Positions 1-20,524 of a DNA stretch of 23,275 nucleotides are shown piece after piece (the first letter of the stretch is position 1; each line of letters opens with the position of its first letter). The position numbers and the translations under genes were made by a program. This DNA comes from a virus. Location: IMG/VR virus record IMGVR_UViG_3300043449_000496, positions 1 through 23,275 of that record, one strand, 5' to 3'. A model generated the notes under the pieces. The model was not told the DNA's origin. It saw nothing but the letters and a program-made list of their open reading frames with translations, and did no database searches.

Positions 1-407
1 ACGTTGAACACGCGGAAGTAGCGCAGGATCGGGATACGCTTGGCCGCCGTGCCCGGCGCGGGCGCGGGCTGGCCCTTGGCGGGCTTGGCGTCGATGAACG
101 TCCAGTAGACGACGACGTGCGAGCGCTCGCCCTTGCGGACGTTGCCGCCCAGCGCCTCCGCTTGGCGGTAGGTCATCCACCAGTTCGAGGCGTAGCCCGC
201 CGACGCGGCGACCATGCCCAGCAGAAACTGGTTGCAGCCCCGGTACGCCTTGCCCGTCGCCACGCTGCGGTGCTCGCCGATGCAGGCGCCGGGCACGTTC
301 CACGGCTTGCGCCACGGGCAGGTGCCCGCTTCGAGGGCGGCGACGACGGCGTCGGTGACGTGCTGGTACAGGTCGAAACGTTCGGACTTGCTGCGTGCGG
401 TTGCCAT
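1..407 (-). CDS. ArdC-like antirestriction protein, N-terminal domain (3' end cut by window edge)
   Basis: The frame reads from ATG at 407 leftwards and stays open to base 1, giving 135 full codons. The residues match the ArdC N-terminal domain (also found in TraC-type primases), a single-stranded-DNA-binding domain tied to protection of incoming DNA from restriction. Visible landmarks are DLYQHVTDAVVAALEAG near residue 13, CPWRKPWN, then a YRGCNQFLL stretch, NWWMTYRQAEALGG, VRKGERSHVVVYW, and RYFRVFNV at the cut end. A GGAG ribosome site lies about ten bases before the ATG, and promoter P1 drives it with a short leader. Whatever follows the ArdC-N domain (a zinc peptidase, a primase domain, or nothing) is outside the window. 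The role in defence evasion is known for the family. That this protein is made early is inferred from the promoter and position. Confidence 0.85.
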   Translation of the reverse strand, partial: MATARSKSERFDLYQHVTDAVVAALEAGTCPWRKPWNVPGACIGEHRSVATGKAYRGCNQFLLGMVAASAGYASNWWMTYRQAEALGGNVRKGERSHVVVYWTFIDAKPAKGQPAPAPGTAAKRIPILRYFRVFN

Positions 408-3441: not shown

Positions 3442-5118
3442 CTAGTGCTTGAACCAGCGCGGCGGCGACGGGAACAGTCCTGACGCCTCCATGTGCTCGT
3501 CGAGTTGCCGCTTGAACCATCGTAGTTTCGCGTTGTCGGACGACGCAAGAGGGTCGGTCTGCATTTCGTCCTGCCACATCTTGCAGCACATTGCCAGCGC
3601 GTCGATCTCGTCGTCGTGCCGCAGGCAGTTGCGGAGCCGCGTGATCCTCGTCAACTGGCGCTGCAACTCCTCGTTGCGGGCGACGTCGGGGTGGAACACG
3701 ATGCGGTGCTGATTGAACAGCGGCTCCAGCGTCGTGATGATCCGCAGTTCCTTCTGCCCGCTCACGCGCACGGGTTCGATGCTGGCGCCCCAGCCCTCGC
3801 CCTCCTTGCGCCGCTTCGCGATCACAGGCTCCAGCAGGCGCGCGAACATGCCCGTGCCGAAGTTGTCCTCGACGTGGATGATTCCGGCGCCGTGCAACTG
3901 CGCCTGATAGGCCAGCCCTTCGAGCACTTCCGGCTCGTAGCCGCCATCGAACCCGCCGACGGCCTTGACCCACAGGTAGCCGTTCAAGTGTGCAACAATC
4001 GCGTAGGCGGTCTTGTCGGCGCCCTTGCCCGACGGGTCGATCCACATGCGGCACCCGGTGTACCCGGCCCACTCCGAATCCCAAAAGATTGGCGCGTGGT
4101 AGGCGTCGATGCCGAAGCCAAGCGACGTCACGTCCTCGCACCGCGTGCTCCTGCCGTGGTCGTTGGTCATGCCCCAACTGATCGTCACCGGAGCCTTGTC
4201 CTTGGCGATTGGGAACACGATGACGTCGCGCAACTTCAACGGGTATCGGTTCCCCTCGCCAAGGTGCGTGATCATCATGTACTGCATGGCGAACGTGCTG
4301 CGGCCTTCAGCAGCCTCGCGCTCCAGCAGGTCTTCGTTGTCGAACCGCTCCGGCCACGCGCAGTCGCCCGGCCCGCGCGCGCCGGATTCGAGTTCTGCCT
4401 TCATGTCCTCCGCGAGCGACGGCACGGGTTCGTCTGCCTTCGGGTAGCGCGCAGGCCACGACTGGAACACGTAGCCGCCCTCGACCAACTTGTCGTACAG
4501 CGTTTCCTCATGGTGAGGCGTGCCAAGGAAGATGATGTCGCCGCCCGGGATCAGGATGTTCTCGAACTCCTTGACCTCCTCGCGCAGGCGCTGGCGCATG
4601 TCGAGCGTCAGGGTGTTCTGACTTGTCTCGACGTCGTCGGCGATGATCATGGTCGCGCGGCCACCCGTGATCTGACCGCCGATGCCGTAGGCGCTGAACG
4701 ACGCCACGCGGTCGGACGGTGCGGTCGCGATGTCGAACTGCGTCGCGCTGTCGCGGTGACCTTCAGTCCGCTGCGGAGAGAGGTGCGACAGCCACGGCAC
4801 CTTGTCGATCCACGACCTCACCATGTACAGCGAGTCGCGGCTGTGCTTCTCCGTCTTCGACACCAGCATGATCCGCTCGTTCGGGTTGCGGAACAGGCGC
4901 CACAGGCAGAATGCCAGCGTCACCCATGTCTTGCTGGCGCCACGGAACGCGCGCACGCCACGGCGTCGCGGCCCCTGCTGGAGCCACTTTCCGATCTGAT
5001 GCTGGTGCTTCGCCAGTTTGGGCAGTCCGACGGCAACCCACAGTTCCTCGCAGAAGAACGGGAAGTCCTCCACAAGGCGACCGATGTACCGTTCGAGTTC
5101 CTGCGCATCCTTGCTCAC
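3442..5118 (-). CDS. terL: Terminase large subunit (T7 gp19-like DNA-packaging ATPase/nuclease)
   Basis: At 558 residues it is close to T7 gp19. The ATPase half has a degenerate Walker A, FRGASKTW (residues 58-65), a Walker B MIIADDVE (157-164), and a coupling motif in IFLGTPHHEETLY (196-208). The nuclease half has acidic positions in WIDPSGKGADKT (Asp361), HVEDNFG (Glu417/Asp418) and HDDEIDALA (Asp502/503). It pumps DNA into the prohead through the portal and, in this family, cuts the concatemer. The start is GTG at 5118, overlapping the TerS stop by four bases (GTGA). Together with TerS it follows the internal-protein genes, as in T7. Confidence 0.95.
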   Translation of the reverse strand: MSKDAQELERYIGRLVEDFPFFCEELWVAVGLPKLAKHQHQIGKWLQQGPRRRGVRAFRGASKTWVTLAFCLWRLFRNPNERIMLVSKTEKHSRDSLYMVRSWIDKVPWLSHLSPQRTEGHRDSATQFDIATAPSDRVASFSAYGIGGQITGGRATMIIADDVETSQNTLTLDMRQRLREEVKEFENILIPGGDIIFLGTPHHEETLYDKLVEGGYVFQSWPARYPKADEPVPSLAEDMKAELESGARGPGDCAWPERFDNEDLLEREAAEGRSTFAMQYMMITHLGEGNRYPLKLRDVIVFPIAKDKAPVTISWGMTNDHGRSTRCEDVTSLGFGIDAYHAPIFWDSEWAGYTGCRMWIDPSGKGADKTAYAIVAHLNGYLWVKAVGGFDGGYEPEVLEGLAYQAQLHGAGIIHVEDNFGTGMFARLLEPVIAKRRKEGEGWGASIEPVRVSGQKELRIITTLEPLFNQHRIVFHPDVARNEELQRQLTRITRLRNCLRHDDEIDALAMCCKMWQDEMQTDPLASSDNAKLRWFKRQLDEHMEASGLFPSPPRWFKH

Positions 5119-5390
5119 ACGGCTTCCTTGTCGTCATTCGCCAGCGGAGTTCCGATGCGCAGTTGACGCCTGCGCATCTCCTCGACGATGTTCTTGATCG
5201 GGCTGGCCTCCTCCGTCGCCACGGTCATGCCGCAGTCCTTGAGCCGCTGCCGGATCACGTTCAGGTCTGCCGCCGTCGCGTCGATGGTGCGCTCCTCGCC
5301 GTCGGGGCCGATGATGGTTCTGCCATCCTTCAGCACCTTGAGAAGCGCCCGGTCGAACTGGTCGGCCATGTCGCGCATCGTGTCGCTCAT
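5115..5390 (-). CDS. terS: Terminase small subunit (T7 gp18-like)
   Basis: The 91 residues are almost the length of T7 gp18. LKVLKDGRTIIGPDGEE near residue 18 and AADLNVIRQRLKDCG (residues 40-54) are typical of small terminase subunits of T7-type phages, which bind DNA and present it to TerL. Its ATG overlaps the stop of the giant upstream gene by four bases (ATGA), and its stop overlaps the TerL GTG. The three proteins are therefore translationally coupled. Confidence 0.88.
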   Translation of the reverse strand: MSDTMRDMADQFDRALLKVLKDGRTIIGPDGEERTIDATAADLNVIRQRLKDCGMTVATEEASPIKNIVEEMRRRQLRIGTPLANDDKEAV

Positions 5391-8300
5391 CGTGTCGCCG
5401 CCTCCACGGCTGCCTCAAGTTCGGAGTTGCGGTTCTCGTTCATGCGAGCCGCGTCCTTCTTGCGAGATTCGATCAGGGCGCGTCGGCGCTCGTCGTACAC
5501 GGCGCGAAGTTCGGGGCTTGCGACCAGCGTCTGCTGCCACGCCGCAGTACGGTAGCGTTCGATCACTCGCACGAACATGGCGATGTCGGGCGGGTTCTCG
5601 CCCGGGTAGTTCTCCGGGTTCGTGTCCGTGAACGACTTGAACATGCGGCCTTCGGCTCCCTTGCCTTCGACGATGTGCTGCAACGCCTGACGCAGAGTCA
5701 GTTTCTTCTGCGTGCCGTCGCCCATCGGGAACGGCATGGTGACCGAAGCGATGTTCTCGTTGTACAGGTCGTATGCAGTCCTGCTCGTCTGCGGCACGCG
5801 AACCTGCTTCAGGTTGACGCCGTCCTTGTTCGGAGGCGTGCTTCGCCAAATGTGCGGCATGTTGACCATCGTTTCGATGACAGCGTCGTCCTGCGCCTTG
5901 CGGCTGACGACCGGAGAAACGATGTCGACCCACGGGTAGTCCTGCATCGGATCGAACGTCCTGATCGGCTCGCCAAGAGCGCTGTACCTGCGCGCCATGA
6001 CGTCGCGACCGCCTGCGGCCTGACCCCACCAACTCTTGGCGCGCATCTCGTTGAGAAGAACCTCGACCTCCTTGCCAAGACCCTCGTCTGCCTTGACGCC
6101 GCCAAGCGGATCGACGGCATACGGGTCTGATGCGCGAAGCACTCCGGCCTGAAGGCTGGACGCAATGCTCGTCGGAGGAAGCGCGGTCAGTCCCATGCGA
6201 CCAATGACTTGCTCCATCTTGACCGGGTCGTCGTTTGCCTCCATCAGCATGTCGAGGTTCATCATGTACGACTTGTTGATGGTCGTCATGGTGAGCGCGT
6301 ATGCGATGGCCGTTGCCGGGCCGATGACCTCTTCCTCGTCGTTCTCGTACATGCCCGACGTAAGTTCGTGGTAGTCGGCCATCCATCCAAGCATCATGCC
6401 GAACGGGTCGAGTTTGTTGTACACGTACCAGCGGTCGCCAATCTTGACGGAGTACGGCTGGCGGCCAGTCTGCTGCCACATCCTGCGCTGCTCCGGGTCG
6501 GCAGGCCCGGCTCCCGTGAGCCGTCCATCCTGAAACAGCGCATATCCGGTTCCAAGCGCAGTCATGCCGACAAGCACCTGACCCTGCGCGCGCGAGATGC
6601 GCGCCGGATCGCCTGACGCCATGTCGAGCATGGTCTGATGATGGAAGCGGTACAGGCGGCTGTTTGGATTGATGCGGAGCCGACGTTCGGTCGCAAGTCC
6701 GACGGCAACATCGCCGCCCACCATGATCGGCGACGTCAGGTAGCCCCACGCGCGACGGAGGATGTTGACCGGAGCCGTGTAGAACGGAACGACCAACTGC
6801 AACCACCAACTCTGCTGAAGGTGATGCCTGACTGCACCGCCAAGACCGGGGATCGGTTCCGTGAACGACTGGCGGTTCGCGGCTTCCGCGATTCCTGCGG
6901 TGGTCTGCTGCTGATCCTGCGTCCAATGCTGGTTGACGTAGTCGTGCATCATTGATGCGCGGCGCAGCGGGTCTTGCTCTGCTGCGATGCGCGGATCGTT
7001 GAACGCCTCGCGACCGATCATCGTCCTGTCACGGATCGCACCGTCGCGGATGTACCGCTGGCCCATCGCGTCCGCTTCCTGCGAAACTGCACGATGGTTG
7101 GCACGCATGAACGCCAACTGATCCCGCCATCCTGTCACGCCAGCGGCTGTCATGCGCTCCTGCATCAGGCGTCGGTACAGACTGCTGTGCATCTCCGTGC
7201 GAGCCGTGACCTGCTTCCAAAACTCGTCGATGGTCGCGATGAACGTGGACGGCAGACGAACTCCGCGTCCTCCTGCATTGATCATCGTTCCAAGGATGTT
7301 CTGCTGATCGGAGTGAATCGCAGGAACAAACGTGTCCTGAACGATGCCCGTGCCATGAGGCATGAGCGTCGGCCTCTCCTCGACGAACGTTCGGGCTGCA
7401 AAGCGCAGGCCGTGGTTCATGTTCGCGATCATGCGCGGCAGATTGCGCAGGGTTTCCGTAGCGGTCAGCATGTCGCCACGGATTCCGGCGACCGCGAGTT
7501 TCTGCAAACCCTCGACTCCAAGAACCAACGGCGGGCTGATGACCTGAAGTCCGAACCAAGATCGCGGAAGCGACAGCAGGCCGTTGCGGTACACCTCAAG
7601 CAGCAGGTTGCCGCGACGCATCTCGCCGGGACGCCACACGTCGTTGAGGATGCGCACCGCAGCGTTCGGATCGACGTCGGGGTCGATGCGGGCAAGCGTT
7701 TCGGCGAGCGGCCTTCCGATGTCGTCGACAAAGCCATTCTGCTCAAGGAAGTTGCGGGCGTTGCGAAGATCGCGGAGTTCCGCTGCGTTGGGCAGCATCT
7801 GCGGATCAAGAGCCTTGAGGCCACGACCCATCGCCGTCTTCGTGTTGCGCATGTGGAAGCGCAGCATCTGAAGGTCGAAGAACGAACGCTGAAGCAGCGC
7901 GAAGTCTGCCGGGTTGTTGGTCTGAACGGCGCGCTGCGCAAGCCTGTGCACCTGACGCAACTGTCCCTGAACCGCCAACTGCACCGTGCTCACGAACGCA
8001 GGCAGTTCGGTGTCGATGCGGCTGACATCGTTCATCCGTGCCCACATCGAAGCGATGCCCTGCGACAGGTCGTCGGCATTGTTCATCAGCAGTTCGTTGA
8101 ACAGGGACAGCGAGCGACGGGTCAACTGGTCGCGCGTCGCCGGGCCGCCAAGCATGTTGCGGGCCTCCATCTCCCGCGCCAGCGACTCGAAGTACGCCAT
8201 GTAGATCAGCGGATCGTCCGGGTTCTCGAAGAACCGGAGGTTGTCGCGGATGTGCTCGCGGCGCGCGTCGATGTCGGCAAGTTGCCGGGTCGCGTCGGCG

Positions 8301-11300
8301 TCGCCAGCGGCTGCGCGCGTGCGCAGGTCTGCCATCTCCGTCGGCGTCAGGTTGCGGCCATCGGGCGACGCAAACGCGCGCTCGCGGTCGGTTCCACGAC
8401 GGAATCGGCCCGTGGCCGGATCGCGCATCGTCGGCCTGCCGTCGAACACGTGCATGCGCGCCGTGCCAAGCGCGTCGTTCGGGTTGATGACCTGAAGCCA
8501 GTCCTCGCCGTTTGACTGCGCCTGCTGGATTCGGGCGATGACCGCAGAGTGGTCAATCGGCATCAGGTATCGGCCCGGCGCGTACTGGATCGGCAGGTCG
8601 GTTCGGTAGTACAGGTTCTCAAGCAGGCGCCGCGTGTCGGTCGGCACGCCAGTAGACGCAGGTGCGTTGCGGGCGACGCGCCATTGGTCGCGCAGCCACG
8701 ATGCCATGATCAACTGCTCGTCGCGTCCGACGCCAGCAAGCCGGGCCGGAACGGCAGTACCGTCCTGCAACAGGGAGACAAGGTCGTCGGCGAACGCCTC
8801 TTCCTGATCGCGAGTCCACGTGCCATTGACGACGCCGTATGCCTGCTCGAATGCGTCGATGGTCGTGTCGGGGATTCCAGCGCGACGCTCAATCGGAAGG
8901 TTGCGGTTGAGCAACTGATTGCGCAGAGCGTGGCCGAACTCATGGGTTGCCGACACGATGTCGGGCATGTTCAGCCCGGCGATGAACGCGATGCCAGTCT
9001 GCTCTTCGATTGCAGCCACGGCGCGCGCCTGTGCGCCCGACGTGTTGAAGAGAATCTTGGTGCCGTCGTTCGGGTTTACATTCGGCGCTTGGGCAGAAAC
9101 ATCACCATCAGTCGCTCTGACTGCTCCGGCTCCGACTGCGTCTTCGACTGACTGTCCATCGGGGCTTGCGTCGATGCCTGTGGCTGCATCTCGCTTCCGC
9201 TGGGAGTTGCGGTAGATTCGATCTTGAGGGCTGTCGGGCTGCCACTTGCGGGCGACTGCTTCGGTTGCATTCTCCGTTCCTTCTGCCGCAGACTGCGGCC
9301 CAATCAGTTCATCGAACTGATGCGAATGATAGACGTCGATCTCGACGTCGAGCGACGTTGCGCGTCCACCGTTATTGAGGAACGGCTTCTTCTTCGTCCG
9401 TTCGACAAGCGCGGTGAACTGTCGCTTGCGCTTGGTAATCATCGACGCAATCTCCGCAGCCGTTGCTCCGCTATCGGACATGGCGATGATCTGCGGATCG
9501 AAGTCGGGAACGTAGATGGATCGCGCTCGCGTGATTCCGTTGACGTTGTTCGTCGCGCGTTCGGCGGCTGACTCGAACTGCATGCCGAACTCCGCAAACG
9601 AATCGCGAAGACGCTTGACTTCGGGCGAGGTTTCGGACAGCGGATTCGCGAACTCAAACTCGACGCCGATGGTTCGAGCGGCATCGACGGTCGTTCCTTC
9701 AGCCACCGTGACTGGCTGAACATCGGCAACCTTCTGACCACCCTTCGCTGCCGGAGTCACCTGAACTTCTGCTCCGGTCAGCGGCGTGACGATGCGGGCG
9801 ACGTAGAACGCCTCGCTGTCAGACTCCTTTGCGTGCTTCGCCATGCGGCTGACAACCGCGTCAGCGCTGGCCTGATTCAGTTGCCGCTTGTTGCCAGTCT
9901 TCGGGCCGACGATGTTCGTGCCCTCGAAAGGCCCGCCTTCAAGCGGCATCTCGTAGTTGACGATGCCGACGTCGACAATGAAGCCGTTGGCATCGCGACC
10001 AGCAACCGTGCCGTTCGCAAGCGTCGCGCGCTTGAACAGCATGTTCGGGTCGCCAGCCATCGACTCTTCCATTGCCTTTGCGCCAGCCTCTGCGACATCG
10101 CGGCCCGGCTGGCCTCCAAGCGTGCCGGAGATGTACCTGCCGCCTTCGCCAGCAAAGTCGCGGCGAAGCCCCTTCTCGAAACTGCCAAGGTCGAGTTTCT
10201 GACCAAGGTTGTAGTGCCAATGATCCTTCTCTGCGAACCACATGATCGCCTGAAGGTCTGCCGCCGTAATGCCCGGGACGACGTCGTTCAGTCGCTGCGC
10301 CGCGAGCGAGAACGCTTCCGCGCCGACTCCATACGCGCCGCTGATGCCGAATCCGCGAGTGGCGCCAGTAACCGCTCCGGTGGCCGGGTCGACAATCGCG
10401 CCCGCTTCCTTGCCGTAGGTTCCCTGAACGCCCTCTTCTGCCGATGGGGCGATTCGGCCACTCTCCTGACGACGTGCTTCGCCAAGACGCTCCCACAGCG
10501 TTCCGGCAGCGGACTCGTCCATTGCCACACGCGGCATGTTCGCAAGGCGCTGCAACGTTCGAGCCGCCCAAACGTCGACGGTCGCCATGTTGAAGTCACC
10601 AAGCAGGTTCTTGGTGAAGTTGCGCGTCTTCGGGTTGCTGCCGTACTTGACGGTTGCCCACATTCCGGCAAGAACGCGCATGGCCGATTCGGTGTTGCTT
10701 CCGAACAGGTTGCCGACGTCGCTGCGAATCTTCAGTTCTTCGGCGAACTCCGGCTTGAGGCCGACTTCCTTCTCGACAAGAGAAGCCACTTCCGCAGCGC
10801 TGGGCGCCGAAAACTTGCCCTTGACTTCTTGTACTGCTTGGGCATACGTCATGCCCTGCTCGCGAAGTTGCGCGATGGCAGCCTTGCGTGCCTCGCCTCG
10901 CTCTGCCGAACCAGCCTCACGAATGCGCTTCTCTGTTTCAGCGTATCGAACGTCGTATGCCTGCGACTCTTCGAGGTGGGCGACGTACTTCGCCATCTGA
11001 TCGTCGTACATCCCGCTTGTGAACTGTCGCAGGATGTCGGTCGCATAGCGCCAGTTAGTGGCAACCGGAGTCTTTGCGCTGGTAGCACCAAGCAGTTCGG
11101 CGAAGATGTCGGAGTACGGCCCGTACAGGCCACGCACGTTCTCCGCAATGTCGCGATACCAGCGCCCGGCAGACATGACCGCAAGCATGCGAGTCTTGAT
11201 CGGGCTGTCGCCCGACTGCTGCGCGACGGACTGCATCACGCGGACTTCGTCGACCATCTTGGCCGCAAGGTCTTCAACGCGAGCCTGCCACTTCGGAGAG

Positions 11301-13558
11301 CCGGGCTGTAGCGCATCCCCCATTTCGTCGAGATGGAACGTGTGGCCCTGCTTCTCGAACTTCCATATGGCCTTGAAGTTGCCTTCGTCGTCGATGTCGA
11401 ACTTGAGCGACGGCTCGTCCTTCGTTCCGGCTGCGATGGTTGGCGTAGACCATCCGTCCTGCGGCGAATACTTGTCGCGCAGTTCACGCAGGGCATCCTC
11501 TGCCATCGTGCGCAACTGGCCCGGAAGGCGCTGGACATCGGCTTCAGTCAGGGATTCGGGAACGACGCCTTCGGGCCACAGTTCCTTCTTCTTCCACCAG
11601 TTCTTCTTGGTCGAGAATACGGCAACCGCATCGTTGATCAGCAGGCCCATGTCCTCGCCTACACCGCCTCGAACGATTGCGCTTGCCCCTTCCTCTCCAG
11701 CCTGACGCATCTGCTCCGCGCCTTCGTAGAGCAACTTGTGCATGCGCTCGCTGACGTTGTCAGGAAGCGTGAAGAAGATGCGCTCCCAGTCAAGACCAGC
11801 AGCCGTGAATCGACGGAACAGCACGTCGGCCTGATCGGGCGCAACGTTGAACGAACTGGCGATCATGGCGCGCGTGACGCGGCGAACGCCATCGACGTAC
11901 TGGCCCAGCGGGAACTCCTGCTGAACCTTGACCAGCGCTTCCTCATGGGTCATGCCGTCTTTCAGCAGTTGCCCCATGCGTCGGCTTCTCTCGACGCCGT
12001 ATGCGGTAAGTTCCGCAACAGCGCGCGCGGTGTCCTTGCTGATCGCCGCCTCGCGAATGGGGCGCGGCATCGTCTTGAGGATCGAATCGGGGTCGAGGCC
12101 GCCGATCTTCTCCAAGTACCTGATGGTGTTTGCCATCGTCGCGCGAGAGCCACCTCCAGCAGCGCGGGCCGCCGCCTTTATGCCGGGCGTCGCTACCTCG
12201 ACAACGCCGGAAAGAATGGCTCCTTCAAGGAAACTGACGAGTCGGCCACGGAATCCCTTGCCTTCCTCCGTCAGTTCCTTCGCATCGAACGCAGCCAGCG
12301 CTTCCTCGCCGATGCCGAACTCACGAAGCATGGTCGAGAGGTTGCCAAGTCGAGGGTCAAAGACGACCGCTGCGGCGATCTCTCCTGCGGCGGCTGCGCG
12401 AATCAGGTTGCCTGCGGTTCCAGCCTTGCCGACCTTCATCAGAGCAGCAGCAGGCCCGTACCCGACGTAGAACTGCGCGATTCCTCCAGCAAGTTGCGGG
12501 ATCACGTACTCTGATGAGTACATGTTGTCGGTGTACGTCAGGGGTGTCCCACCAAAGACATCCCTGACGATGAGGTTGTATACCGATTCGCCAGCGCGCT
12601 GCGGAGCCTGCAAGGCCATGCCTGCGGCATCGACGACGTTGTTCCACACCCATCCCGCTCCATATGAGCCGGAGGTACGGTTGGGGTCGCCAGCGTCGCC
12701 AACGGTCAGGTACGAAGGCCACTTCGTCCACGACGAGAGGAAACTGTCCTTGCCTTCCGTCTTGTAGTACCACGCGATGTAGTCGTCGTATGTGAAGTAC
12801 CCGGTTCGCTTCTTCGCAAGATTGACGGCAGCCTGACGCTCCATCACGTCGCGACCCGGAGCGGTTTCGCGGTCAATGCGCATCCACTCCGTCAGAGCAG
12901 CGAGCCTGTCTTCGGGCGAAGTGTTTGGGTCAAGGACGATATCACCATAGTCCTTGAGCGCACGCCGCTCCTTGTCACCAAGAACCTCCGCACGGTACGG
13001 ATTGAGCCGCGAAAGTTGCTTGGATTCGATGGCGCTTTCGTATGTAGCCGGAGCGTTCGCGTCATCGAATGCCGTGCTTGCCCGGATGTTGTTGAGGACT
13101 GCCGTAGCCTCGTTCTGATCGTCGGTGCCTGCAACCTGCATGACGAGTGGAAGCATGCTTGCGTCCTGCCGCATCTGTGCCTGCAAGAGGCGCATTGCCG
13201 CAATCTCGTCCTGCGGGTACATCGGGCTGCCACGCTCGCCCATTCTGACGACGTCGCGCATGGCCTGCTCTTGCGTTCGATCAAGCGACGGCGGCGCTCC
13301 GTAGCGCTGCTGAAGGTTGTTCTGCGCGAGTCGAGAGCGTGCCACGCCAGCCGCAAGCGCCGGAGTGTCTGCACCGGAAGCAGCGAGTTCTTCGGTCGCA
13401 GACATCTTGCCAGCGGCGCGGAGTTCTTCTGCCCAAGCCTGCTCTGCTGGAGAGTTGAGCGGAGTCTGCGACAACGACGTTCCGCGAGCCAAGTCTGACG
13501 GCGTTCCCGCTTGCTTGCTGAACACGCGGTCAATGTTGTCGTTTGGAGGAACGTTCAT
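5387..13558 (-). CDS. Giant 2723-residue internal virion / polyvalent protein with zinc-peptidase motif (gp16 position)
   Basis: This gene lies exactly where T7 gene 16 lies, between a gp15-like gene and terminase, so it is probably a core protein ejected into the cell with the DNA. I see no lytic transglycosylase at its N-terminus. Landmarks: hydrophobic or amphipathic stretches about 350-455; a WYRDIAENVRG...LLGATSAKTPVATN block about 790-835; NFTKNLLG...VDVWAAR about 975-999; ITAADLQAIMWFAEKDHW about 1090-1110; a low-complexity linker about 1440-1525; zinc-peptidase motif HEFGH at 1539-1543 with a likely third ligand in DQEEAF near 1586; and C-terminal DEFWKQVTAR (about 2110) and YSVKIGDRWYVYNKLDPFGM (about 2365-2385). 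Several of these blocks recur in large phage 'polyvalent' proteins. It is roughly twice the length of T7 gp16. The ATG overlaps the upstream stop (ATGA). Structural role likely; peptidase and anti-defence roles inferred. Confidence 0.85.
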   Translation of the reverse strand: MNVPPNDNIDRVFSKQAGTPSDLARGTSLSQTPLNSPAEQAWAEELRAAGKMSATEELAASGADTPALAAGVARSRLAQNNLQQRYGAPPSLDRTQEQAMRDVVRMGERGSPMYPQDEIAAMRLLQAQMRQDASMLPLVMQVAGTDDQNEATAVLNNIRASTAFDDANAPATYESAIESKQLSRLNPYRAEVLGDKERRALKDYGDIVLDPNTSPEDRLAALTEWMRIDRETAPGRDVMERQAAVNLAKKRTGYFTYDDYIAWYYKTEGKDSFLSSWTKWPSYLTVGDAGDPNRTSGSYGAGWVWNNVVDAAGMALQAPQRAGESVYNLIVRDVFGGTPLTYTDNMYSSEYVIPQLAGGIAQFYVGYGPAAALMKVGKAGTAGNLIRAAAAGEIAAAVVFDPRLGNLSTMLREFGIGEEALAAFDAKELTEEGKGFRGRLVSFLEGAILSGVVEVATPGIKAAARAAGGGSRATMANTIRYLEKIGGLDPDSILKTMPRPIREAAISKDTARAVAELTAYGVERSRRMGQLLKDGMTHEEALVKVQQEFPLGQYVDGVRRVTRAMIASSFNVAPDQADVLFRRFTAAGLDWERIFFTLPDNVSERMHKLLYEGAEQMRQAGEEGASAIVRGGVGEDMGLLINDAVAVFSTKKNWWKKKELWPEGVVPESLTEADVQRLPGQLRTMAEDALRELRDKYSPQDGWSTPTIAAGTKDEPSLKFDIDDEGNFKAIWKFEKQGHTFHLDEMGDALQPGSPKWQARVEDLAAKMVDEVRVMQSVAQQSGDSPIKTRMLAVMSAGRWYRDIAENVRGLYGPYSDIFAELLGATSAKTPVATNWRYATDILRQFTSGMYDDQMAKYVAHLEESQAYDVRYAETEKRIREAGSAERGEARKAAIAQLREQGMTYAQAVQEVKGKFSAPSAAEVASLVEKEVGLKPEFAEELKIRSDVGNLFGSNTESAMRVLAGMWATVKYGSNPKTRNFTKNLLGDFNMATVDVWAARTLQRLANMPRVAMDESAAGTLWERLGEARRQESGRIAPSAEEGVQGTYGKEAGAIVDPATGAVTGATRGFGISGAYGVGAEAFSLAAQRLNDVVPGITAADLQAIMWFAEKDHWHYNLGQKLDLGSFEKGLRRDFAGEGGRYISGTLGGQPGRDVAEAGAKAMEESMAGDPNMLFKRATLANGTVAGRDANGFIVDVGIVNYEMPLEGGPFEGTNIVGPKTGNKRQLNQASADAVVSRMAKHAKESDSEAFYVARIVTPLTGAEVQVTPAAKGGQKVADVQPVTVAEGTTVDAARTIGVEFEFANPLSETSPEVKRLRDSFAEFGMQFESAAERATNNVNGITRARSIYVPDFDPQIIAMSDSGATAAEIASMITKRKRQFTALVERTKKKPFLNNGGRATSLDVEIDVYHSHQFDELIGPQSAAEGTENATEAVARKWQPDSPQDRIYRNSQRKRDAATGIDASPDGQSVEDAVGAGAVRATDGDVSAQAPNVNPNDGTKILFNTSGAQARAVAAIEEQTGIAFIAGLNMPDIVSATHEFGHALRNQLLNRNLPIERRAGIPDTTIDAFEQAYGVVNGTWTRDQEEAFADDLVSLLQDGTAVPARLAGVGRDEQLIMASWLRDQWRVARNAPASTGVPTDTRRLLENLYYRTDLPIQYAPGRYLMPIDHSAVIARIQQAQSNGEDWLQVINPNDALGTARMHVFDGRPTMRDPATGRFRRGTDRERAFASPDGRNLTPTEMADLRTRAAAGDADATRQLADIDARREHIRDNLRFFENPDDPLIYMAYFESLAREMEARNMLGGPATRDQLTRRSLSLFNELLMNNADDLSQGIASMWARMNDVSRIDTELPAFVSTVQLAVQGQLRQVHRLAQRAVQTNNPADFALLQRSFFDLQMLRFHMRNTKTAMGRGLKALDPQMLPNAAELRDLRNARNFLEQNGFVDDIGRPLAETLARIDPDVDPNAAVRILNDVWRPGEMRRGNLLLEVYRNGLLSLPRSWFGLQVISPPLVLGVEGLQKLAVAGIRGDMLTATETLRNLPRMIANMNHGLRFAARTFVEERPTLMPHGTGIVQDTFVPAIHSDQQNILGTMINAGGRGVRLPSTFIATIDEFWKQVTARTEMHSSLYRRLMQERMTAAGVTGWRDQLAFMRANHRAVSQEADAMGQRYIRDGAIRDRTMIGREAFNDPRIAAEQDPLRRASMMHDYVNQHWTQDQQQTTAGIAEAANRQSFTEPIPGLGGAVRHHLQQSWWLQLVVPFYTAPVNILRRAWGYLTSPIMVGGDVAVGLATERRLRINPNSRLYRFHHQTMLDMASGDPARISRAQGQVLVGMTALGTGYALFQDGRLTGAGPADPEQRRMWQQTGRQPYSVKIGDRWYVYNKLDPFGMMLGWMADYHELTSGMYENDEEEVIGPATAIAYALTMTTINKSYMMNLDMLMEANDDPVKMEQVIGRMGLTALPPTSIASSLQAGVLRASDPYAVDPLGGVKADEGLGKEVEVLLNEMRAKSWWGQAAGGRDVMARRYSALGEPIRTFDPMQDYPWVDIVSPVVSRKAQDDAVIETMVNMPHIWRSTPPNKDGVNLKQVRVPQTSRTAYDLYNENIASVTMPFPMGDGTQKKLTLRQALQHIVEGKGAEGRMFKSFTDTNPENYPGENPPDIAMFVRVIERYRTAAWQQTLVASPELRAVYDERRRALIESRKKDAARMNENRNSELEAAVEAATR

Positions 13559-15620: not shown

Positions 15621-16208
15621 TTACGCCGGAAGTGCGTTACCGAACATGTCCTTATTCGCGCCTTGAAGTTGCCGCATGCCGCCAGCGATTGACAGTCCAG
15701 TACCAAGTCCCTGAAGGCCACCCGTGACGCCCGAAAGGAACGGGTTCTGCGCCTGCATGGAGTAGTTCATCGCCTGCGACTGGTACGCCTGCGTGCTAGA
15801 CAACTGCTGCTGCTGGTAGTCAAGGTTGGCACGGCGCACGGCTTCGTATCGGCCACGGTCGATCATGTCCTTGGCGAACGACTCATCGAAGAACAGTTGG
15901 TTCATCATCTGCTCGCCGACGCCGCTTCCGGTCGACAGGCCAGCCATAGCCGCTCCTGCCCGCAGTCGTCCGCGCGCTGCCGCTGCCTCGCGTTCCTTCA
16001 TGCGAGACTCTGCCGCAGCGCGGTCGGTGATCTGCGATTCGATGAGATTGCGCTGGGATGTCAGTTGCTTCTGACGATCTTGATTCGCTGCGGCCTGCAT
16101 GGCGATGCCCTGCTTGATCCGCTGGTTCATCATCACGGCGCTGGCCGTGGAGGCCGCAGCGCTTGCCGCCGTGATGGCGATTACTGCTCCGATTTCTGCG
16201 CCTGTCAT
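15621..16208 (-). CDS. Internal virion protein, gp14-like (195 residues)
   Basis: The start at 16208 is chosen because its ATG overlaps the gene 12 stop (ATGA), like other junctions in this operon. An earlier in-frame start at 16262 would reach inside gene 12. The length is almost the same as T7 gp14 (196). The N-terminus is a small hydrophobic segment rich in Ala (EIGAVIAITAASAAASTASA, residues 5-24), followed by long Gln/Arg/Ala-rich helices (about 30-150) and a Gly/Leu-rich C-terminus. T7 gp14 inserts into the outer membrane when ejected, and the N-terminal apolar stretch fits that. Confidence 0.8.
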   Translation of the reverse strand: MTGAEIGAVIAITAASAAASTASAVMMNQRIKQGIAMQAAANQDRQKQLTSQRNLIESQITDRAAAESRMKEREAAAARGRLRAGAAMAGLSTGSGVGEQMMNQLFFDESFAKDMIDRGRYEAVRRANLDYQQQQLSSTQAYQSQAMNYSMQAQNPFLSGVTGGLQGLGTGLSIAGGMRQLQGANKDMFGNALPA

Positions 16209-18580
16209 TGCTTGTACTCCCGCAAAGTCGAGAACGAACCGTGGTATTCGACGCCGCTCCAAGTGACTGGAAGCACGGTGTCAGAAGTAAGACTGATGGT
16301 GCACCTGTCTGCCTGCGTGCTGACCCAGCACGTGAACTTTCCGTAGTCGGATACTCCTCCGGCTGGCGTGTACGTCGATGATGTCGACAGTCCGACATCC
16401 CTGTTGATGTCGACCCTGTATGCACCGCTGTCAACATGGTCGACAACCAACTTGTGGATTGTCGTCCGTCCTTCGATGACTGGCTTGTCGTCAGCCCGGA
16501 AGATGACCTCGCTCAACTCAAGCGACGCATCGTACTTCCTTCCAAGGATGACCTTCTTGGCAGAATGGTTACCTGTGACACGAATGCTTCCATTGACGTG
16601 CGTTGCCGCAGCGGTCGTGAAGTCGTCGAACACGCAGGTGTCGATTGACGAGTCGTAGTACCCAAGGCTCCACGACGTGTAGTTGCCGCCAGCGTTGTAG
16701 GTTCCCTGCCCAGCGCTGAACATGCGGTAGTGGTCAAGTTGAACCTGATACGCCCACCCGTCCTGCGGAGATGATTCGTCCGTCAGGTTCATCTTCTCGA
16801 TGATGATTGCCGACGTGCCTCCAACCTGCGTGTCGTCCCGGCGCATGATGAACAGTTCGTCGTCGATGATCTTTGCGTCCTGAACGTTGTCGGTTCCAAA
16901 CTGCCAAACGCTCCAAGCGCTTTGCTTACGCTCGTTGCCGACGTTGTACGAACGGTACACGTACATGTACGAGGCGGGCAGGGTTCCCTTCGGAGCAGGC
17001 GCCGGATACGAGTCGAGCGTCACCGTGTGGCCCGACGTGATGACTGCCGTGTCGTATGGCTGCGGCGCAACGGCTCCGACCCAAGTCGTCGACGTGCTCC
17101 AGTTTCCGGTTTGCGCGCTGATGACGACGCGCTCGACGTCGTCGGCGTCAGGTCGCGCGATGCAGCAGACCATGTCGCTGTTTGCGCTTGCGTCCATTCC
17201 GATGACGGCGTTTGGCATCAGGTCATCGACGTGCTTGGTGACGTCTGCCGCGACGTTGCTGACCGCCGTGTCGGAGTAGAAGTATTCGTACAGCAGCGTC
17301 TTGCTTGGATGGTCGCCAAGCATGTAGATGCGCTCGCCGACAGCGACTGGCCTAATCGCCTTGGTCGAATACCGGGTGCTGGGGCTGACGGCAACCTGAC
17401 CCGGGCCAAAGACGTCACCGCTGGTGACCTCGAACTGCTGCCCGGCACGGGTCAGGACAAGAACGGATCGTCGGTAGGGTACAACGTGATCGACGATTGT
17501 GACGTCGTTGGCGCTCAACTGAACTTCGATTGGATCGGCGTCCGTGAGGATGTCGGCGCGTTCCTTGAACAGGTTGAACAGGTCGTCCGTCGCGCTGAAG
17601 AAGACGAAGTCGTCGCTGCACAGGATGAGTCTGTTCCTGAAGTATCCGATGTCGATGATCTTGCGGCCATCCTTGGCAAACTTCGGCGCTGGCTGCGAAA
17701 AGTCCTCGCCTCTCTCGACCGTGTATGCAGAGCCGTTCATCGTGCTCGCGGTGACGCCGATGAGGCTGTCGACCTTGAGGTCGGGAGACAGGTCGATGTA
17801 GATGTCCTTCTGCGGGAGAGGCCCGCCAGTCACGATGATCTTGCCACGGACGAGCGATTGAATGCCCGTGATGTAGTCATCGGGATAGTCGTCGGGGTCA
17901 AGGCCGTTTCCGGTCAGGCACTCGTCGATCTGCTTCGAGTTCGCGTTCCACGGAACGGTAGAAGGGGTCGTGTACCCAAGGTACGTCATATTGAACGTAC
18001 CAGTCGTCGGAGCCGTTGTTCCTGCTTTGATGACCTGCCTGTAGAAGGGTCTTTCCTTCCATGTGCACAGGTCGATGCTGAATGCCAGCGGACTCGTCGT
18101 CGTGCGCTGCATGCGCACGGGCATCGTGTTGGCGTCAATCCCAGTACCGTTGCCCGTGGTCGCGGTAGAGCGAAGCGAGTTGGCGATGAACGTGTTGTCA
18201 GCGACCGTCACGAACCGAAGGTTCTCTGCCTTGGCTCCTCCGTAGGAAAGGTAGGACTGTGCCGCTGCGGTAATCGTCGGAGTGACGACTGTTCCCGTGT
18301 TGACGTCAATGATCCTGATGAATCCGCTTGACCCGGCGATGACGATGTATTCCTCCGCGTCGTCGCGTTCGATGCGATGCATGCGGTACTGCTGGTTGTA
18401 CGTTGCACCGCTGATGAACGCGACGAACTTCGTTCCGCTGCGCTTTCGGGCGCCATCAACAATGTTGAAGTTGACGTTCAACGCATCAGAAACCTGACCC
18501 GGATACCGGATCGTCGGAGACTGCCTGCTGATGCCGTGCATCAACCCGGGGATGCGCTGAAAGAGGTTTGACGTAGGCAT
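16205..18580 (-). CDS. Tail tubular protein B (T7 gp12-like) with an inserted module
   Basis: At 791 residues it is close to T7 gp12 (794). Matching landmarks are ISRQSPTIRYPGQ (residues 17-29), RKRSGTKFV (46-53), LRFVTVADNTFIAN (121-134), FRNRLILCSDDFVFFSATDD (314-333) with ADPIEVQLS (348-356), VGERIYMLGDHPS (414-426), and KQSAWSVWQFG (552-562). Gene 12 products form the nozzle of the short tail and contact the fibres. Between VERVVI (482-487) and YMYVYRSYNVG (538-548), where T7 runs straight on, there is an extra stretch containing GNWSTSTTWVG and SGHTVTLDS, which resembles a motif of beta-helix surface proteins. A GGGAGG site lies before the ATG, and the gene abuts the upstream stop codon. 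Confidence 0.92.
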   Translation of the reverse strand: MPTSNLFQRIPGLMHGISRQSPTIRYPGQVSDALNVNFNIVDGARKRSGTKFVAFISGATYNQQYRMHRIERDDAEEYIVIAGSSGFIRIIDVNTGTVVTPTITAAAQSYLSYGGAKAENLRFVTVADNTFIANSLRSTATTGNGTGIDANTMPVRMQRTTTSPLAFSIDLCTWKERPFYRQVIKAGTTAPTTGTFNMTYLGYTTPSTVPWNANSKQIDECLTGNGLDPDDYPDDYITGIQSLVRGKIIVTGGPLPQKDIYIDLSPDLKVDSLIGVTASTMNGSAYTVERGEDFSQPAPKFAKDGRKIIDIGYFRNRLILCSDDFVFFSATDDLFNLFKERADILTDADPIEVQLSANDVTIVDHVVPYRRSVLVLTRAGQQFEVTSGDVFGPGQVAVSPSTRYSTKAIRPVAVGERIYMLGDHPSKTLLYEYFYSDTAVSNVAADVTKHVDDLMPNAVIGMDASANSDMVCCIARPDADDVERVVISAQTGNWSTSTTWVGAVAPQPYDTAVITSGHTVTLDSYPAPAPKGTLPASYMYVYRSYNVGNERKQSAWSVWQFGTDNVQDAKIIDDELFIMRRDDTQVGGTSAIIIEKMNLTDESSPQDGWAYQVQLDHYRMFSAGQGTYNAGGNYTSWSLGYYDSSIDTCVFDDFTTAAATHVNGSIRVTGNHSAKKVILGRKYDASLELSEVIFRADDKPVIEGRTTIHKLVVDHVDSGAYRVDINRDVGLSTSSTYTPAGGVSDYGKFTCWVSTQADRCTISLTSDTVLPVTWSGVEYHGSFSTLREYKQ

Positions 18581-19201
18581 TTAGCCTCCCTGATCTCGCT
18601 GCTGGCCTCCGGTGTTTGGGAACATCGGCTGCGTGTTTGGAGGAAGGTCGCTTCGAGAAGCCTCGTTGCGATCCGCTCGCATCTCCGACTGCACGTACTC
18701 CTGTTGCATCTGACTGTCGGCCAACTGACTGTTCTGAAGCCTGCGCTGGAACAGCAACTTGGCCTGCGCGATCACGACGTCGGCCAACTTGACCGGGAGG
18801 TCTTCCCAAGCAAGCAGCACCGTGACGTCGAGGAAGACGGTTGTGCTGGCACCAAGGTTGAACGTGCGCTTGTCGGCGTCGTACACCGTCGGCGTGCCTG
18901 CGTTGTTTCTTATCACCAGCGTGCGGTAGTGGTCAGGCCCGGTTGCCTTGATCGACAGGATGCCCGTCAGGGTCACGAAGCCCGAACCGCTTGCCGTGAA
19001 AGAGCGTGCGCGCTCCGTGTTCTCCGGCCAGCCTTGCGCCAGCACCTGATACAGGGCGCGGTCGATGAACGTTTCAGCGCGCCAGTAGATCGACGTCGTG
19101 TCGCCCCCGGCGCTTGGTCGGGTCGTGCCGCCCATCGGGAACTCGCCGATGGTTTCGACCACTTGGTTGATGGCGTCGACGATTGTGTATGGATTAGGCA
19201 T
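18581..19201 (-). CDS. Tail tubular protein A (T7 gp11-like), second copy
   Basis: A 206-residue protein with the gp11 pattern. It has an N-terminal INQVVETIGE helix, a TFIDRALYQVLAQGWPENTE segment (about 42-62) matching the 'R.Q..GW.FN' region of gp11, a central YDADKRTFNLG strand pair, and VTVLLAWEDLPVKLADVVI followed by a Gln-rich helix about 130-180. Gp11 forms the gatekeeper ring between portal and nozzle. It is clearly paralogous to the gene just upstream. The C-terminus (about 185-206) is a disordered-looking Pro/Gln/Gly tail. It overlaps the upstream stop by eight bases. Confidence 0.85.
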   Translation of the reverse strand: MPNPYTIVDAINQVVETIGEFPMGGTTRPSAGGDTTSIYWRAETFIDRALYQVLAQGWPENTERARSFTASGSGFVTLTGILSIKATGPDHYRTLVIRNNAGTPTVYDADKRTFNLGASTTVFLDVTVLLAWEDLPVKLADVVIAQAKLLFQRRLQNSQLADSQMQQEYVQSEMRADRNEASRSDLPPNTQPMFPNTGGQQRDQGG

Positions 19202-19811
19202 CTACGTACCCTTCGATGTACTGGAAGGCCGGGCGGCCCTTGACGGAGCGGACGTCTGCGGTGGACAGGACATTCACGTCGCTGGACAGAATCTCCTCGC
19301 GGTTGACCTGCGCCTGCGCGAGCATGATCTCCTGCTGCAACTGGGCGTCGCGCGCCTGATTGCCGACGAAGTGTCGGTTGAAGTTGAACGCCGCGTGGGC
19401 GATCACCAACTGCGCGAACGAGTCAGGCAGGTCTGTGACCGGAAGAAGCAGCGTCACCTGAAGGTAGAACGCCGTGTCCTTGTCGAACGTGCTGGTGTTC
19501 AGTTCGATGTCGAACAACTTGCCGTCCCTGATGGTGTAGTTCTTGTACATGTAGTCGTCAGCAGCATCGACGTGCAGAATCGGAACAGCGGCGATTTCCG
19601 CAGTAGTCAAAGCATTGTTGGCGACGACCACGTACTTGGCCTTCGGGATGTGGTTGAACAGCCATTGCTTGGTCTGAAGCCGCCTGCTTGCATCGCTGAT
19701 GCAACGCTCAACTTCCGATTGCGTCGACGTTCCGCTGGTGTCAAGCGCGGCCACGCGCGGCTTGCCAAGCCTGCGCAGCGTGTCATTGACCATTTCAAGC
19801 ATCGTCATCAT
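19194..19811 (-). CDS. Tail tubular protein A (T7 gp11-like), first copy
   Basis: The start is placed at the first of three clustered ATGs (19811, 19808, 19802), because the upstream gene stops at 19814. An earlier in-frame ATG at 19886 would lie inside that gene. The 205-residue product has LEMVNDTLRRLGKPRVAALD at the N-terminus, EVERCISDASRRLQTKQWLF (about 30-50), YTIRDGKLFDIELN in the centre, and VTLLLPVTDLPDSFAQLVIA followed by a long Gln-rich helix. This is the classic gp11 layout, and it aligns block by block with the next gene. The tail role is secure. Why two copies are kept is open. Confidence 0.87.
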   Translation of the reverse strand: MMTMLEMVNDTLRRLGKPRVAALDTSGTSTQSEVERCISDASRRLQTKQWLFNHIPKAKYVVVANNALTTAEIAAVPILHVDAADDYMYKNYTIRDGKLFDIELNTSTFDKDTAFYLQVTLLLPVTDLPDSFAQLVIAHAAFNFNRHFVGNQARDAQLQQEIMLAQAQVNREEILSSDVNVLSTADVRSVKGRPAFQYIEGYVDA

Positions 19812-19813
19812 GG

Positions 19814-20524
19814 TTAGACGCTCTGTGTGACCATGAACATGATCTTCGACGCATTGGCGCCGTTGATTGGATTGGTTACTACGCAATCGACGAACGTCGT
19901 TGCGCGAGTCGCCGACCTTGGAAGGATTTGATTTGCAATCAGCGCGGAATCATGGTTGTCCTGAAACAGGACGATGAAGTTGGTTCCCGACTGCGCGGTG
20001 GTAAAAGTCAGTCGGAATGTTCCACCTACGCCGCTGTTGGTGATTGCAGCCGTGACGCCGCTTGAGTTTGTCCCAAGGGTCAGGGCGGTGATCGTCGTAT
20101 GCGGAGCGGTGGCGCTGAACGTGATGTCGATTGAACCCCACGCCTTCAGCAGCGCAGGGCTGGTGGCGCTGAAGTTTGTGCCTCCGACGGTGAGCGACGT
20201 GCATGAAAGCGCCTGCGTCGACGTGCTGCCCGACGATACGGTAAGTCCGCTGGTAGACGTCAGGCCAGCCGATGCCGTGATCAGACCTGATGCAGTCACG
20301 GTTGACGAGAACGATGTCGCCGGAGCGATGGTCACGGCGCTGTTGCTCACGGCGATGCGCGATGCATCAGTTGTTCCCGTGTCGACAATGCTTCGCGACG
20401 TAAACTGCTCGACGGTCGTCTGCGTGCCGTTGACCGTCAGACTGCTGCTCATCGCAACAGGTTCGGAGAACGTGACCGTTCCGGCGGTGTTCGATTGAAT
20501 GGTGTTGACCTTGAGTGTGCTCAT
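19814..20524 (-). CDS. Small fibre-like / virion-attached protein (236 residues)
   Basis: The ATG at 20524 overlaps the upstream stop (ATGA), which decides the start over a longer frame. It begins STLKVNTIQSNTAG, an opening often seen in short-tail fibre and appendage proteins of marine and freshwater podoviruses. Ser/Thr/Gly-rich short repeats follow, of the TASGLITASAGLTSTSGLTV type (about 77-96), as in beta-stranded fibre shafts. The second half begins LLKAWGSIDITFSA (about 125-138), and the rest looks like a compact beta domain. It probably sits on the tail or as a fibre adaptor. The exact place is inferred from the tail-gene neighbours. Confidence 0.75.
   Translation of the reverse strand: MSTLKVNTIQSNTAGTVTFSEPVAMSSSLTVNGTQTTVEQFTSRSIVDTGTTDASRIAVSNSAVTIAPATSFSSTVTASGLITASAGLTSTSGLTVSSGSTSTQALSCTSLTVGGTNFSATSPALLKAWGSIDITFSATAPHTTITALTLGTNSSGVTAAITNSGVGGTFRLTFTTAQSGTNFIVLFQDNHDSALIANQILPRSATRATTFVDCVVTNPINGANASKIMFMVTQSV

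Follow-up and report, generated by a model that had tools for sequence, protein, structure and literature searches.

The internal virion protein gp16 of bacteriophage T7 is a chain of 1318 amino acids, and the relevant passages of PMC8954989 give 1337 amino acids as the greatest length among the gp16-like proteins that they name. According to the same passages, gp16-like proteins come in very different sizes and with different sets of domains, their N-terminal transglycosylase is phage-specific and absent in P22-like phages, and in the T7 model the C-terminal part of gp16 (here gp16-C) reaches the cytoplasm and binds DNA. Here, we describe a gene that is about twice as long and takes the place of gp16 in a T7-like operon. 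It is located in a window of 23,275 nucleotides (the whole stretch of DNA that was analysed, positions 1 to 23,275 of the IMG/VR virus record IMGVR_UViG_3300043449_000496), where a single open reading frame (ORF) with an ATG start and no internal stop codons occupies 5387..13558 on the minus strand and encodes 2723 amino acids. Both the position and the doubled length had been proposed from the letters alone in what we refer to as the sequence-only reading. The lengths cited above agree with the latter, and the former was borne out by a gp14 gene and a gp15-position ORF before the gene and by genes for DNA_Packaging_2 and the terminase large subunit (TerL) after it.

A second group of described systems comprises the polyvalent proteins, which according to parts of Iyer et al. 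(2017; PMC5512222) are large chains with several unrelated enzyme-like domains, encoded in a virion-gene setting and proposed to be processed by zincin-type peptidases. The same parts describe the N4 virion RNA polymerase and T4 Alt, virion-carried enzymes at the start of infection that offer a functional comparison, although their enzymes and carriers differ and the case presented here is known from sequence alone. The word glycosylase does not occur in the main text of that paper. As a host-side weapon, a bacterial 5hmC glycosylase directed against T-even phages is described in part of a preprint (PMC13160076). Literature searches, which left most subscription papers uncovered and are thus weak evidence, found nothing on DUF7178, the Pfam domain of unknown function that is central here, no report of a DNA glycosylase with a phage ejection protein, and no paper joining either DNA glycosylase, mycobacteriophage, and helix-hairpin-helix or internal virion protein, ADP-ribosyltransferase, and podovirus. 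Excerpts of the papers found for DNA glycosylase and internal virion protein describe pyrimidine dimer glycosylase genes located apart from the virion proteins.

A DUF7178 Domain and a gp16-Like Region in One Chain

The C-terminal part of the protein was related to gp16 (internal virion protein D). The family phrog_6651 (internal virion protein) matched residues 2325 to 2461 with an E-value of 3.7e-22, and the gp16-C region aligned with six separate gp16 ORFs at 99.1% in hhalign. When the whole protein was compared with 50,697 phage records by tblastn, 30 records matched, all within residues 1773 to 2719, every one with less than 60% identity and none covering 80%; 17 of these are annotated as internal virion or core proteins, 9 as hypothetical, and 4 otherwise or not at all. 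The isolates nearest by gp16 infect mostly marine bacteria, and the homologs in ProddE, CRP-114, and ctgrD200 are 1268, 1334, and 1142 amino acids long. The homology of gp16-C and the location of the gene after gp14 and the gp15-position ORF are those of a gp16-like ejection protein. No SLT transglycosylase was matched by Pfam anywhere in the chain, and the assignment was kept because this domain is not universal among gp16-like proteins.

Unlike T7 gp16, the protein contains a DUF7178 domain, an α/β domain, and a candidate zincin metallopeptidase before gp16-C. The Pfam profile for DUF7178 (PF23802) matched with an E-value of 6.6e-10 and 39.7 bits, above the curated cut-off of 27, and the DUF7178 region aligned with separate DUF7178 ORFs at 99.9% in hhalign. 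The α/β domain is likewise found in the separate ORFs (hmmsearch E-value 3.4e-5, two stretches). Residues 1 to 690 had no Pfam match and one weak PHROG match (E-value 0.011), and no phage record matched residues 1 to 790 in tblastn at E ≤ 1.

The sequence-only reading had further described repeated blocks in the chain and taken the product for an injected polyvalent protein. The first of these claims fell, in that none of the four quoted strings is present more than once: ATSAKTPVATN (residue 825), VDVWAAR (994), and DLQAIMWFAEK (1101) all belong to a single DUF7178 domain, while YSVKIGDRWYVYNKLDPFGM (2369) lies in gp16-C. Internal repeats were rejected because the tandem repeat finder listed three short arrays, none with the quoted blocks; two of them (5369-5398 and 6056-6095) are inside the gene span. 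The polyvalent nature of the product, repeats aside, is largely supported at the sequence level by two enzyme-like segments in a chain with gp16-C and by matches to ART-PolyVal in the corresponding position of related loci; its injection and the anti-defence role that the sequence-only reading also proposed are conjectures. The gene is encoded with virion genes, as is characteristic of polyvalent proteins; of the two or more catalytic-type domains expected in such proteins, DUF7178 is present, and both its glycosylase identity and the zincin are predictions. Nor did the predictions, as far as they go, consist only of the structural helical folds that the sequence-only reading had set against its own proposal. 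The differences from described polyvalent proteins are that the carrier is here the gp16 of a T7-like ejectosome and that the zincin has no MPTase-PolyVal match.

Separate and Fused Forms of the Gene

A scan with the gp16 of relatives in which the two parts are split returned 316 loci, and the following counts rest on the best 80 of these. A DUF7178-type ORF was located directly upstream of gp16 at 44 of the 80 loci; 26 had no DUF7178 at E ≤ 1e-3, 10 had no room upstream, and none had DUF7178 and gp16 in one ORF. At all 70 loci with room, the ORF in this slot had one and the same N-terminal module, at most about 350 amino acids long (E ≤ 1e-3) and matched over only about 60 amino acids in L119, L120, and L125; 47 modules remained at 90% identity. 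Counted by ORF, the module was present in 70 of 72, the exceptions being the extra ORFs of L116 and L117. The slot ORF came after the nozzle, gp14-like, and gp15-position ORFs in the mapped split loci.

The domains behind the module differed. ART-PolyVal was searched for in 49 records (the 26 loci without DUF7178, the window, L001, L002, and 20 others) and matched at E ≤ 0.01 in 12 of the 26, twice over the Pfam cut-off, with no match in the window, and the slot ORF of L092 also had GNAT matches below the cut-off. With a single N-terminal module at 70 of 70 loci and variable domains after it, the slot resembles a carrier whose cargo can be exchanged, such as glycosylase-like and ADP-ribosyltransferase-like domains. 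It was also noted that the module occurs alone beside gp16 in L116 (3215..4135, 307 amino acids) and L117 (8835..9755), with a separate ORF of 590 amino acids upstream. The slot ORFs of L059, L075, L080, and L114 form a further cargo cluster with 464 to 481 amino acids after the carrier; two of these were scanned, giving a weak repeat match only in L059 and none in L114.

Cargo and gp16 form one chain in the window and in three further cases. The same frame was present in L001, where the best segment was 79% identical, and in contig 3300044681_000334 (L002/L003), where it is cut by the contig ends and the two parts were 98% and 94% identical. Furthermore, L284 contained a collinear homolog of 2431 amino acids with 25.7% identity over residues 343 to 2722 (blastp). 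Against L001, the ratio of nonsynonymous to synonymous divergence (dN/dS) was about 0.19 (0.159/0.858) for the whole ORF, 0.12 for the DUF7178 core (residues 941 to 1006), 0.07 for the zincin part, and 0.14 for gp16-C, as compared with about 0.57 for the fast-evolving insert in DUF7178 (residues 851 to 940). Synonymous divergence from L001 falls to 0.32 at 9059..9298 (residues 1421 to 1500), against 0.86 overall, possibly through recombination or hidden constraint.

On balance, we favour the interpretation that the gene is a fusion of a DUF7178 cargo gene with gp16, giving an ejectosome component with an enzymatic cargo that is possibly freed by the zincin. It weighs against this origin that the carrier module of the split relatives was not detected at the N-terminus of the window protein, where only residues 360 to 459 resemble L094 (84%).

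DUF7178 as a Probable DNA Glycosylase

Sequence comparisons and structural modelling indicate that DUF7178 is probably a divergent HhH-GPD DNA glycosylase that has the Lys and Asp found together in bifunctional glycosylase/AP-lyases. The Lys and Asp of Ogg and Nth glycosylases are catalytic residues, and the spacing of 18 between Lys977 and Asp995 equals that in five printed archaeal Ogg motifs (GYKE...DRH) and in several Nth motifs (GRKTA...VDTH). Both the Lys and the Asp were present in 44 of 44 DUF7178 slot ORFs upstream of gp16. These ORFs were recruited via gp16, with a query from DUF7178 loci, and then recognized by the DUF7178 profile; 9 are on contigs of the pattern scan described below and 35 are not, many are near-identical, and 9 or 10 were used in building the extended DUF7178 alignment. 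The profile listed 46 ORFs at E ≤ 0.01, the remaining two being L121 and L127, which align partly, with the Asp present and no aligned Lys. In place of VDVW, L094 and L118 have VDTH, the motif of the Nth proteins that were fetched, and L101 and L115 read IDTH.

The extended DUF7178 family aligned in hhalign with Nth-type glycosylases at 51% (score 38.0) and with Ogg-type glycosylases at 14% (score 30.3), compared with scores of 10 to 12 for reversed profiles and 24.6 for the best of 15 other phage families; none of 100 column shuffles of either profile reached the observed score. The best VIA match of a model of residues 780 to 1130 was 3knt_A, the 8-oxoguanine glycosylase of M. jannaschii (Z 9.0, rmsd 3.9, 175 aligned over positions 7 to 351 of the model), followed by a next row at Z 6.3.

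Several observations weigh against the assignment. VIA Z values under about 13 can arise by chance in helical proteins, and the model itself had a pLDDT of only 71.6. Foldseek returned nothing at E ≤ 0.001 for the models of the window and of L016. The unextended DUF7178 family matched glycosylases weakly, at 1% to 5%, and three divergent groups have Lys-Asp spacings of 17 to 23, as judged by eye, compared with 18 in the window. No Pfam glycosylase family matched the window, and sequence searches of the PDB with the whole protein and with DUF7178 profiles gave weak matches, none to a glycosylase. Most DUF7178 members moreover have VDVW rather than VDTH or DRH, and the profile match to the Ogg and Nth families, while above controls, is of modest strength. 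Ogg-HhH (PF22175) matched 3 of 14 controls and had no match in the window record, and for lack of a Pfam match the window protein is not counted as a member of that family. The VIA list for the L016 model, headed by RND-pump porter domains, falls mostly on its α/β half and so speaks neither for nor against a glycosylase fold in the first half.

DUF7178 also occurs in other settings. A tblastn search with residues 791 to 1252 matched 48 phage records at E ≤ 1 (46 Mycobacterium, 2 Rhodococcus), some annotated as glycosylase, DNA glycosylase, or N-glycosylase/DNA lyase and most as hypothetical. These actinophage proteins share the Pfam family and the Lys/Asp motif; the three translated are 191 to 205 amino acids long and stand alone among hypothetical genes, whereas the domain in the window is embedded and has a helical insert. 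A pattern scan of viral contigs for DUF7178 gave 38 loci, 2 of them of the window's lineage. At 19 loci (L014-L032) the domain was in ORFs of 910 to 1512 amino acids, some cut by contig ends; among the other 17, the 9 that were measured had ORFs of 191 to 263 amino acids. The scan patterns contained the Lys and Asp motifs, so that the invariance of these residues among the 38 loci is partly built in. Eight stretches of genome_contigs fitted the pattern, none of which was confirmed as a relative, and the carrier/DUF7178 ORF of L016 had no phage match at E ≤ 1e-3.

Two of these settings support a multi-domain and possibly delivered context independently of the window. An ORF of at least 2069 amino acids in L286 (3..6209), cut by the locus start, contained ART-PolyVal (E-value 1.2e-23) and near its C-terminus a DUF7178-like domain (E-value 3.7e-32 with our own profile, below the Pfam cut-off), and in L028 (7199..11656), from another phage type, SLT (PF01464, E-value 7.7e-28) and DUF7178 were in one ORF. 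L029-L032 resemble L028 in the DUF7178 part. An ORF of at least 2075 amino acids in L287 (3..6227), also cut by the locus start, had a DUF7178-like domain near its C-terminus and a Phage_L5_gp82 match. L288 (1033..5603) contained a DUF7178-like ORF of 1070 amino acids next to one that matched the NAT10/TcmA helicase, and the ORF sizes in L289 and L290 were similar.

A Candidate Zincin at the Presumed Former Gene Boundary

The segment between the cargo and gp16-C contains an HExxH motif with a downstream candidate third ligand, as is expected of a zincin. L001 and L002 retain both HEFGH and Glu1587, and in L284, at 26% identity, they appear as HEFSHAL and E.FA.D. None of the 80 separate gp16 ORFs had the motif HExxH, nor did any of the 25 other slot ORFs examined; it occurred in 2 of the 44 DUF7178 slot ORFs (HEQNH in L104 and L112) in a context apparently unlike that of the window. 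The motif HEF.HAL thus goes with the fused form (four contigs, two lineages). Scanning with the zincin region brought up the known lineage and nothing else, and L284 was added later.

The lack of any match to a known family (Pfam, PHROG, MPTase-PolyVal) weighs against the zincin assignment; MPTase-PolyVal (PF18818) matched 1 of 50 records, namely the ArdC protein of the L002 record, and had no match in the window. The placement of the candidate zincin, where relatives have a gene boundary, fits a role in releasing the cargo, probably by cutting the chain.

Proposed Mechanism and Alternatives

According to the proposed scenario, two neighbouring ejectosome genes that are separate in relatives, the upstream DUF7178 cargo and gp16, were fused, and the resulting chain would be housed in the internal core of the virion. 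On infection, it would unfold and leave via the portal, and gp16-C would thread the membrane and bring the glycosylase into the cytoplasm together with the first of the DNA. By analogy to the T7 model, gp16-C could take with it to the cytoplasm a domain that is fused in front of it. The glycosylase would then excise bases before any phage gene is expressed, and the zincin-like domain would cut the chain and free the cargo, either before packaging or after entry. The virion location, the ejection, the glycosylase and peptidase activities, the cleavage, and the target are all inferred. The target is the least certain step; we incline to host DNA or host defence rather than to the repair of phage DNA, given that in other loci the slot is occupied by enzymes of a host-modifying type (ADP-ribosyltransferase-like).

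The alternative that the delivered glycosylase-like cargo instead repairs oxidised or deaminated bases of the incoming phage DNA appears unlikely but has arguments of its own. The closest fold match is an 8-oxoguanine glycosylase, and the standalone relative in three actinophages is an ordinary small gene among hypotheticals, in no recognized virion operon. However, the slot in related loci contains ADP-ribosyltransferase-like and GNAT-like domains rather than repair enzymes. A DNA glycosylase alone, moreover, yields abasic sites, and further enzymes are required to complete repair.

It is improbable that DUF7178, the α/β domain, and the HExxH segment are non-enzymatic spacers or rings of an enlarged channel. 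Such a role would agree with the variability of gp16-like proteins (passages of PMC8954989) and with the DUF7178 insert, which evolves rapidly (dN/dS about 0.57) and was modelled as helical. It does not explain why active-site-like residues are present in 44 of 44 slot ORFs, why DUF7178 occurs alone in actinophages and is replaced in the same slot by an ART-like domain, or why HExxH and the downstream Glu are kept at 26% identity.

Quite improbable, too, is a cut by the zincin in the producing cell, such that only gp16-C is packaged and the glycosylase works late in the first host. P1 DdrB, according to part of Iyer et al. (2017; PMC5512222), is processed before packaging, whereas the N4 virion RNA polymerase is packaged uncut; furthermore, the split cargo gene is located just before gp16 and, in the mapped loci, after the gp15-position ORF and has a conserved N-terminal module, an arrangement better suited to a virion component. 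Finally, although the window is a virus contig from a public collection and apparently not an isolate genome, the probability that the long frame is an assembly chimera is close to negligible, as this explanation is refuted by the recurrence of the fusion in L001, in the distant L284, and at both contig ends in L002/L003, and the frame is under purifying selection (dN/dS about 0.19 against L001).

Gene Content and Virus Type

The gene order in the window is nozzle, T7_gp14, gp15-position ORF, the 2723-residue ORF, DNA_Packaging_2, and TerL (Table 1), and the long ORF has a 4-base overlap with each of its neighbours, the gp18-like gene on one side and the gp15-position ORF on the other. For the gp15-position ORF, a TPR_21 match below the cut-off was the only one, and no PHROG matched. 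T7 has a fibre gene between gp16 and the gp18-like gene, whereas the window has none there; a protein containing Laminin_G_3, possibly a fibre, is encoded at 20521..22182, upstream of the tail tube genes and not after gp16. Two adjoining ORFs resembling tail tube A (18581..19201 and 19194..19886) both match phrog_446, and each matches the other's copy in L001, as in a duplicated gp11-like gene. An ArdcN domain (PF08401, E-value 3.9e-37) at 3..407 is cut by the contig end; the full ArdC protein of L002, of 397 amino acids, also carries MPTase-PolyVal.

The 41.5-kb contig of the close relative (L002/L003) encodes a single-subunit RNA polymerase, a Gp10A-like capsid protein, and a head-tail connector, and for this reason the virus is considered T7-like. 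The ends of that contig (the start of L002 and the end of L003) overlap by about 50 codons within the gp16 gene with one residue differing, which is consistent with a complete genome.

Table 1. Coordinates of the fused gene, its predicted parts, and its neighbours in the window
Feature	Position	Strand	Basis
Fused gp16-position ORF, 2723 aa	5387..13558	-	Same frame in L001, L002/L003; collinear homolog L284
N-terminal region, aa 1-679	11522..13558	-	No family match; common to L284 from aa 343
DUF7178 region with helical insert (about aa 851-940), about aa 680-1117	10208..11521	-	PF23802
Lys977, candidate AP-lyase lysine	10628..10630	-	Aligned with Lys of Nth/Ogg profiles
Asp995, candidate catalytic aspartate, 18 residues past Lys977	10574..10576	-	Aligned with VDTH / DRH Asp
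α/β domain, aa 1234-1422	9293..9859	-	Common to C-terminus of separate DUF7178 ORFs
Candidate zincin metallopeptidase, aa 1501-1640, between cargo and gp16-C	8639..9058	-	HEFGH + Glu1587
HEFGH motif, aa 1539-1543	8930..8944	-	H1539-E1540-H1543
Glu1587, candidate third zinc ligand	8798..8800	-	Aligned Glu in L001, L002, L284
gp16-C (internal virion protein D family), about aa 1902-2646	5621..7855	-	phrog_6651, tblastn, hhalign
Terminase large subunit (TerL)	3442..5118	-	phrog_38, E 8.1e-104
gp18-like DNA packaging protein	5115..5390	-	DNA_Packaging_2, PF11123, E 1.8e-6
gp15-position ORF, 686 aa	13555..15615	-	gp15 by position alone
gp14 (T7_gp14)	15621..16205	-	PF24072, E 1e-7; start of gene uncertain
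Nozzle / tail tubular protein B	16205..18580	-	PF25675, E 6.5e-94

Implications

Three things are new here: the cargo's probable identity, a slot with contents that can be exchanged, and a fused form that has a candidate zincin at its joint. We tentatively propose, at somewhat less than even confidence, that this group of T7-like phages has an ejectosome effector slot just before gp16, in which a conserved carrier module is combined with exchangeable enzymes (DNA glycosylase/AP-lyase, ADP-ribosyltransferase, and others), and that in one branch the effector is fused to gp16 and released by a zincin at the junction. A virion-delivered DNA glycosylase, if true, would be a class of injected effector for which we found no report, and the vague idea of effectors among podovirus ejection proteins would become a concrete, testable locus with a slot, a carrier, exchangeable enzymes, and a fused variant. 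If the proposal is right, a mechanism can be assigned to a Pfam domain whose function was unknown, and a single machine would deliver both the entry of the DNA and the first enzymatic attack on the host.

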